Shown here piece by piece: positions 49,018 through 50,373 of a DNA stretch of 64,000 bases. The stretch covers positions 1 through 64,000 of the forward strand of contig VLTN01000041.1 in assembly GCA_008330645.1 (NCBI GenBank), in the 5' to 3' direction. The position numbers and the translations under genes are program-made. The stretch is from Cafeteria roenbergensis. Lineage: Eukaryota; Sar; Bigyra; Bicosoecida; Cafeteriaceae. The notes under the pieces were generated by a model that was not told the DNA's origin, made no database searches, and saw only the letters and a program-made list of their open reading frames with translations. Within the stretch, counting starts at the first letter, position 1, and each line of letters begins with the position of its first letter.

Positions 49018-49850
49018 GTTGGTGTGACGCGTGTAGCGGCAAGTTGCACTCCTCGCAAGGAGCCCCCCGTGGCGCAGGGAGTCCGCGCGGTGCCGCAGGC
49101 GCGAGGACGACAGAAAGAGCGGCTGAGCGCAGGTGGCGCGGGTATCGGGGTGCGGCTCGTCGGCTGCGTGTGCTTGGCTGGCGGGGGGGCTCGCCACCTG
49201 ATGGGCTCTGCAACAGCAGTCGCGCTGACGCCGCCTTGCCCCGTGGCAGCCAGCCGGGCGCTCACCAGCCGCACGGGACGCGCGTGACGGGGACGGGCGC
49301 GACCGTGATCCAATGGCCGCGTGTTTGGGTGCTGTCGGGACCGCCACACAGGCTTCCGTGGCGCGGCTTTCCGCTGCTGCCAAGGCGCAAATCTGACCAC
49401 GTCACACGGCTCTCGGTCGGAATTGCAACCCGGCGCTGCGACTGCCGCGCGCGTGCCTCGGGCCGCCCGCAGTGCTGCCGCAAACGAGACGGACGAGCAT
49501 TGATGCGGGCGGCTGTCACAGGCCGCCAGAGTGCGGTCGCCGAGGCACCTGCAAAACTGAAGCGGCTCGATTGGCGGAACGAGGTCTGGAACGCGCCGCG
49601 GCGCCCAAGCGCTTGCAAGCCCGCGAAGCCAATGTGCGCACAGGCTCCCTTAGCCCCAGCGAGCAATCAGCGTCAGGGGCCAAGGGGCGCTGCCCCAGCC
49701 TCTCCGGCGCCTTCGGCGGTGGAGGGCCAGAACTTGGGCTGCGTTGCACAAAAGCCCGGCCCCTGGCACCAAGCACCAAGGCCCGCGGCAAGAGTGCGCC
49801 CATGCGCTGGCCCGTCCGCCGAGCGGCGCAGCCAGCCGGGCCGCACGGGC
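49018..49850. other. Intergenic, 3' UTR of selenoprotein and 5' region of transporter
   Basis: 833 bases between two minus-strand genes. The selenoprotein side should be its 3' UTR and includes the SECIS candidate at 49440-49535; the rest precedes the transporter. No coding sequence supported. Confidence 0.5.
49440..49535 (-). promoter_or_regulatory. Candidate SECIS element (form 2)
   Basis: On the minus strand, TGA at 49518-49516 and GA at 49459-49458 can form the SECIS quartet. After one A-C mismatch, nine Watson-Crick pairs follow: 49513-49505 with 49470-49462 (GCCGCCCGC/GCGGGCGGC). An unpaired AA at 49501-49500 lies on the 5' side of the apical loop, followed by a four-pair upper stem TGCT/AGCA (49499-49496 with 49476-49473). 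That is the layout of a form 2 eukaryotic SECIS. It lies about 330 bases after the selenoprotein stop. The lower helix is weak. Not folded by computer. Confidence 0.55.
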
Positions 49851-50373
49851 CTAGGCCGACGACGGCTTCACCCAGTCCTTGGGAATGGTGCCCTTGGTCG
49901 CGTACGCAGCGATGGCGCTCGCCAGGCCCTTGAAGTCCGGGAAGGACCCGCAGGCAAGCTTGCTGTGCGCAAGCATGCCGTCGACGACGACCTCGAACGA
50001 GCCCGTGCGTCCCCCCCCGGCGCGAATGGCGGCCTCGAAAGCAGAGTCCCCTTCCGAGGCATCAGCCAGGCGGCTGATTTCGATCGAGAGCATGCGCGCC
50101 CTCGACTCGTACCCTCACCTCCGGCTGCGAAGGAGGAGGGCAACAGGTGCATGGGAACGCGGCGCTCTGGGTTCCTGGCGACAGCGCGCGCAGCGGCTGG
50201 CGCCAGCGAGCGGCACAAAGCGCAGCGACCCGGCGGAAAGCCGAGCGGCGGCGGGGAGGGGGGCGTCATTGGCGTGACCGAAGCTCCACAGCGGCAGCGC
50301 GGGGCCGCCCGGGCGCGCCCAAGACGCACCAGAACTCGATCGTTACGGAAATGTCCCGCGCGGTTGAAGCCAT
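49851..50373 (-). CDS. SELENOW: Selenoprotein W-like (Rdx family) with in-frame TGA
   Basis: 105 residues from exons 50373-50330 and 50124-49851; intron of 205 bases, GTGCGT...CGCAG. The splice falls inside a Cys codon (TG|C) and produces VTIEFCRRUGYESRARMLSI, where U is a TGA. This matches the CxxU redox motif and flanking GYxSR helix of selenoprotein W (Cys15, Sec18). Downstream, RTGSFEVVVDGMLAHSKLAC is the second Rdx signature (FEV...G.L.HSK), then GSFPDFKGLASAI. Rdx proteins have a thioredoxin-like fold and act as small thiol redox proteins. Unspliced reading would give only an 80-residue fragment from ATG 50093, without the active site. A SECIS candidate lies downstream. If TGA were a true stop the conserved C-terminal half would be unreachable, which argues for recoding. 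Confidence 0.85.
50115..50117 (-). other. Selenocysteine codon (TGA)
   Basis: In-frame TGA, codon 18 of the spliced selenoprotein W-like gene, in the U position of CxxU. It overlaps a GGTGAGGG sequence that could be mistaken for a splice donor. Confidence 0.8.

Follow-up and report, generated by a model that had tools for sequence, protein, structure and literature searches.

Introduction

The Rdx domain family comprises proteins in which a CxxU or CxxC motif lies near the N-terminus of the domain, with either selenocysteine (Sec, U) or cysteine at the last position of that motif. Human C17orf37 (PDB 2ljk), which we take to be MIEN1/Rdx12, is a cysteine form carrying the motif CEPC, and the bacterial SelT/SelW/SelH-family proteins (2oka, 2obk, 2fa8, 2p0g; NCBIfam NF041051) share the same domain, with cysteine (CTQC) in 2oka and 2obk, the two that were aligned. 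Mouse SelW (2npb) has Sec in the CxxU of its Rdx domain, as does, by its description, SelW2. SelW2 of fish and frog has been presented as a relative of Rdx12 that contains Sec, with the proposal that Rdx12 was derived from SelW2 in vertebrates before the amphibian split (PMC3316567).

The flagellate Cafeteria has been described as the host of a giant virus and a virophage. RNA-seq data entered into a published Cafeteria annotation (PMC6972860), and other Cafeteria assemblies include E4-10P, Cflag and RCC970-E3. Sec use is characterized as variable or scattered across stramenopiles in two articles (PMC7539508, PMC4561486), in whose main text the word Cafeteria is absent. The literature, judged by titles and the beginnings of abstracts, yielded no report on selenoproteins of Cafeteria or of the bicosoecid lineage.

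In this article, a gene on the minus strand of a 64,000-nucleotide stretch of Cafeteria roenbergensis DNA (contig VLTN01000041.1, positions 1 to 64,000; hereafter the window) is analyzed together with the assembly to which it belongs (36,303,456 bases, 167 contigs). It is considered highly probable that this two-exon nuclear gene encodes a SelW/Rdx12-type Rdx selenoprotein with its TGA read as Sec, a reading that includes predicted splicing and Sec insertion as well as a presumed SECIS function and redox role.

Gene Structure and Alternative Splice Joins

Joining positions 50373-50330 to 50124-49851 on the minus strand gives a frame of 318 nt in which TGA occurs once internally and TAG is the stop. 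Exon 1 (50330-50373, minus strand, 44 nt) starts with the ATG, stops two bases into the codon for the Cys of CxxU, and contributes MASTARDISVTIEF-C to the in-frame join. The predicted GT-AG intron (50125-50329, minus strand, 205 nt), delimited by its sequence and by the enumeration of joins, begins with GTGCGT and ends with CTCCTTCGCAG, and exon 2 (49851-50124, minus strand, 274 nt) supplies (C)RR-U-GYESRARM, FEVVVDG, HSK and the terminal KDWVKPSSA ahead of the TAG stop. The TGA assigned to Sec, the last residue of CxxU, occupies 50115-50117 on the minus strand, between CRR and GYES. The resulting product of 105 residues reads MASTARDISVTIEFCRRUGYESRARMLSIEISRLADASEGDSAFEAAIRAGGGRTGSFEVVVDGMLAHSKLACGSFPDFKGLASAIAAYATKGTIPKDWVKPSSA; in it, EFCRRUGYESRARM lies close to the start and TGSFEVVVDGMLAHSK follows downstream. 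The Cys codon of C-R-R-U is assembled across the exon junction, and the motif thereby stands near the N-terminus of the domain, the position expected for CxxU or CxxC in Rdx proteins. Both the frame and the motif can be read directly from the DNA. The sequence-only reading had placed the exons, intron, TGA, CxxU and FEV...HSK signature in one frame, and each of its coordinates proved exact; its expectation that a simple gene caller would report an 80-residue fragment is likewise borne out by the open reading frame list, which gives just an 80-residue piece (50093-49851) in the frame of this gene.

GT-AG joins from the same ATG that retain the whole 80-residue frame were enumerated for last exon-1 bases from 50321 to 50371 and first exon-2 bases from 50094 to 50299. 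In-frame joins numbered 16, 12 with a stop and four stop-free, and a CxxU adjoining GYxS, the order given for SelW in the sequence-only reading, arose in a single one of the 16. The four stop-free joins give some room to a splice form devoid of Sec, in which the intron would end at a later AG (50102-50101 or 50107-50106), the TGA and CxxU would be lost, and a redox-dead Rdx protein would be made; 50330/50100, for instance, yields ...EFWARM, and 50326/50105 yields ...EFWCSRARM. However, CxxC is found in none of these four forms, the later AGs lack, by eye, the pyrimidine tract found before the CGCAG acceptor, and the CRRUGYES motif would have to be accidental. In addition, for ...EFWARM, the one of the four that was scored, the match no longer takes in the N-terminal part of the domain (23.7 vs 39.6 bits). 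Such splicing is therefore regarded as very improbable as an account of the locus.

Rdx Family Match and Subfamily Placement

The match of the joined protein to the Rdx family is a direct observation. Against Pfam Rdx (PF10262, curated cut-off 22.6 bits), the joined protein reaches 46.7 bits (E=3.7e-12) with C at the Sec site and 39.6 bits (E=6.2e-10) with X at that site, and it scores 44.6 bits against NCBIfam TIGR02174 (CXXU_selWTH, cut-off 34.2) and 34.9 bits against NF041051, under the cut-off of 88 of that model. A protein search with the joined sequence, a check proposed at the outset, recovers the Rdx domain above the cut-offs of PF10262 and TIGR02174. The pieces that do without the TGA score lower against Pfam Rdx, with 23.9 bits (E=4.7e-5) for the 80-residue piece, 24.7 bits (E=2.7e-5) for the stretch past the TGA alone, and E=5.6e-5 for the TGA-free join giving ...EFWARM. 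Comparison of 39.6 with 24.7 and 23.7 bits therefore indicates that about 15 bits come from exon 1 and CRR, with the Sec position given no credit. Two Rdx-family matches were reported in the genome, the second of which (C66, 139171-139575) belongs to a longer, SelT-like protein with CSSC, a Cys form.

Within the solved structures, human C17orf37 ranks first (E=1.9e-7), followed by the bacterial-type 2oka, 2obk, 2fa8 and 2p0g (E 0.016 to 0.27) and mouse SelW (E=0.61). The CEPC-G of C17orf37 sits where the window protein has CRRU-G, with the TGA aligned to the second Cys of CEPC, and its TGAFEI...SKLENGGFP aligns with TGSFEV...SKLACGSFP; C17orf37 has Cys where the window gene has TGA, and the residues flanking the domain differ. 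Mouse SelW shares the Sec-containing CxxU but is matched poorly, and the bacterial proteins have the same domain but are matched weakly and are distant in sequence, with Cys in the two aligned members in place of Sec. In view of C17orf37 being nearer than mouse SelW, a comparison confined to solved chains, "SelW/Rdx12-type" is a safer name than plain SelW, and the original description as SelW-like holds insofar as the product is an Rdx-family CxxU protein and does not hold insofar as it implies the SelW subfamily proper. Peptide-pattern searches, limited in reach to close relatives, gave 7 matches in viral contigs (IMG/VR) and 51 in prokaryote genomes (GTDB), with no relative confirmed by tblastn in either set.

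Selenocysteine Machinery in the Assembly

The factors that would be required for Sec synthesis and delivery were searched for throughout the assembly, and tRNA-Sec, SepSecS, SPS2 and eEFSec are all present. The tRNA-Sec reaches 71.3 bits with the Rfam model RF01852, whose gathering score is 47, and is reported by ARAGORN as tRNA-SeC with anticodon TCA, and SepSecS scores 513.7 bits across two stretches. For eEFSec, a domain IV match (7e-15) falls in a long ORF that also has the GTPase part and was recognized as eEFSec by eye. Selenophosphate synthetase matches with 216.5 bits (C19, 69792-70604) and has one TGA inside the match, in LKG-U-GCKV, which we take to be the Sec site of SPS2. A genome devoid of Sec machinery, which would have spoken against the sequence-only reading, is thus excluded, and the claim that this organism inserts Sec is supported by the tRNA-Sec(TCA), SepSecS, the TGA-containing SPS2, eEFSec, and a TGA-containing glutathione peroxidase (GPx) gene. 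From the set of machinery genes named in that reading, tRNA-Sec, SPS2 and eEFSec were recovered and SBP2 was not, the assembly having six L7Ae-domain matches, none of which was recognized by eye as SBP2.

The eukaryotic PSTK model TIGR03575 has no match in the assembly. A weak PSTK candidate on C157 and C4 scores 23.5 bits against TIGR03574 (cut-off 290.5); it is the same KTI12-family match on both contigs, with identical score, length and open frame, perhaps as two alleles that the assembly kept apart. By eye, C77 and C40 also carry nearly the same gene, one resembling ribosomal S12, with a frame that is disturbed in places on C40; duplication or misassembly may account for the near-copy.

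Other Candidate Selenoprotein Genes and UGA as a Stop Codon

In three of the five Sec-capable families searched (Rdx, SelD, GPx, Sep15/SelM and MsrA), a gene carries TGA in the Sec position. Four Pfam GPx matches occur in the assembly. One of them, on C52 (match 108513-108698), has TGA in ATY-U-GLTVSNYEGLN and, once the TGA is replaced by X, matches Pfam GSHPx at 1.5e-11; the gene to which it belongs has a signal-peptide-like start and also matches a later stretch of the domain. The matched stretch holds two TGA codons, one at the Sec site and the other among its last residues, inside GTGAGC, where it would mark the end of the exon. The TGA codons at known Sec sites in these two further genes, SPS2 and GPx, are observed directly. 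The GPx gene neighbouring it downstream (C52, 110454-110603) has Cys (TASKCGF), giving a tandem Sec/Cys pair, and the match on C9 is a stop-free stretch. MsrA is a Cys form (GCFW); the active-site exon of the Sep15/SelM-like gene was not located, and neither this gene nor MsrA has a convincing 3' SECIS.

Elsewhere UGA acts as a terminator: the serine palmitoyltransferase-like gene upstream (named by eye) ends in TGA, as SPS2 apparently does, and therefore the codon has not simply been reassigned. This bears on a further possibility, that UGA in the Cafeteria nuclear genome specifies Trp or another of the ordinary amino acids, for which there is a precedent in the Cafeteria mitochondrion, where UGA is decoded as Trp (PMC6972860). 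The window, however, lies on a 323-kb contig and has 70-75% G+C over its length, the neighbouring gene terminates with TGA, the SPS2 match holds a single TGA placed at its Sec site, and the second TGA of GPx falls in GTGAGC at the presumed exon end. The possibility is largely refuted, and we rate it the least probable of the alternatives weighed here.

As a separate observation, tRNA genes for Glu, Gly and Ser lie close together on contig C167 (43,160 bases), which is probably the mitochondrial genome; its length presumably agrees with that of the published Cafeteria mitochondrial genome.

Candidate SECIS Elements

A candidate SECIS was found in the 3' UTR of the SelW/Rdx12-type gene (49451-49526, minus strand), about 330 nt past the stop, consisting of GTGA (49519-49516), N14, AA (49501-49500), a side helix, a 10-bp helix 2, and GA (49459-49458). 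The first four scans for SECIS, with narrower settings, picked up the SPS2 element and gave no TGA-core candidate at the SelW/Rdx12-type gene; when other cores were admitted in one of them, 2 and 5 weak candidates resulted, which are not claimed. The loosest of the four gave hits in 72 of the 158 control windows and was therefore dropped, and an anchored-helix score, in which both helices are fixed on the TGA/GA core, was written instead, after the 3' UTR had been read by eye.

This score is 46.5 for the SelW 3' UTR, 43.0 for SPS2, and 23.5 for GPx, against a 95th percentile of 38.6, a 99th of 43 and a maximum of 46.5 over 158 windows of 800 bases, the SelW one included. Dinucleotide shuffles reached the observed score in 3, 18 and 938 of 1000 cases for SelW, SPS2 and GPx, respectively. 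In a larger set of 288 stretches of 833 bases, drawn from both strands of the window and from the loci, without L002, L006 and L007, the last being the SPS2 locus, and with some loci overlapping, a score of 46.5 was reached by one stretch, the included SelW one (rank 1), and 43 by six. The SelW and SPS2 hairpins are alike in having GTGA separated by 14 bases from AA, and 10 pairs in helix 2, that of SPS2 lying about 120 nt beyond the apparent stop. A search for GTGA-N14-AA (AA or CC allowed) with a 10-pair helix, with thresholds set after both had been seen, retained the SelW stretch alone among the 288.

Within contexts of 85 and 98 bases, the SelW hairpin, folded freely, shows the 10-bp helix, an unpaired stretch containing the AA, and a small side helix, with some core bases paired, and two longer contexts fold differently; the free fold resembles what we take to be a form 2 SECIS. 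The SPS2 hairpin adopted no SECIS shape by itself in four contexts, nor with its TGA and AA held open. Rfam SECIS_1 (RF00031) had no match in the 3' UTR of the SelW/Rdx12-type gene or in the 3' regions of SPS2 and GPx, nor any in the genome at E<=10, with 121 candidates scored. Alignment of the SelW and SPS2 candidates with MAFFT was not sensible and was set aside. The SelW hairpin is thus a good candidate for a SECIS, short of proof.

For the GPx gene, no SECIS stood above the shuffles, and it follows from the 938 of 1000 that the anchored-helix score misses real SECIS elements or that this gene differs. A wider GPx search and a search for very long apical loops produced several paper candidates without a shuffle control, and these are not claimed. 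On the 3' side of the Sec GPx, at about 2474-2948 of locus L009 (C52), a left arm of the form GTGA-N14-AA could form 13 pairs with a partner about 460 bases further on; this long-range pair, one among several, may be a SECIS interrupted by an intron in the 3' UTR, or may be due to chance.

The moderate nature of the SECIS support, together with the fact that TGA is one base away from a Cys codon, lends some plausibility to a decayed Cys-type Rdx gene, in which TGC or TGT would have mutated to TGA, now acting as a plain stop. Against such decay, the frame beyond the TGA is intact and retains its family match, the TGA falls exactly at the Sec position, Sec machinery is present along with two other genes having TGA at Sec sites, and the best SECIS-like hairpin among the 288 stretches is the one located 3' of this very gene. 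Decay is accordingly judged very improbable, somewhat more so than the loss of the TGA by splicing.

Proposed Decoding and Implications

On the preferred reading, that of a selenoprotein gene, the pre-mRNA would lose the 205-nt intron, and splicing would complete the Cys codon of the CxxU redox motif. The SECIS hairpin in the 3' UTR may then recruit eEFSec with Sec-tRNA(UCA), and UGA would be decoded as Sec rather than as a stop. The expected product is a small thioredoxin-like protein, the Cys/Sec pair of which may perform thiol-disulphide exchange.

The gene is most likely a well-supported, ordinary member of the known SelW/Rdx family. It is conceivable, though on balance rather unlikely, that the Sec-containing SelW2/Rdx12 branch is far older than the vertebrates and has persisted, with its Sec, in this heterotrophic stramenopile, whose Sec genes would be marked by a SECIS core of the form GTGA-N14-AA.

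The new element is a probable selenoprotein gene of the SelW/Rdx12 type in a little-surveyed marine protist, one that a simple gene caller would cut short. It points to the decoding of UGA as Sec in a Cafeteria-type bicosoecid, and for this reason automatic annotation may give the SelW/Rdx12-type gene, SPS2, and one GPx gene in truncated form. The three Sec genes and two candidate SECIS elements are offered for testing the use of Sec in Cafeteria.
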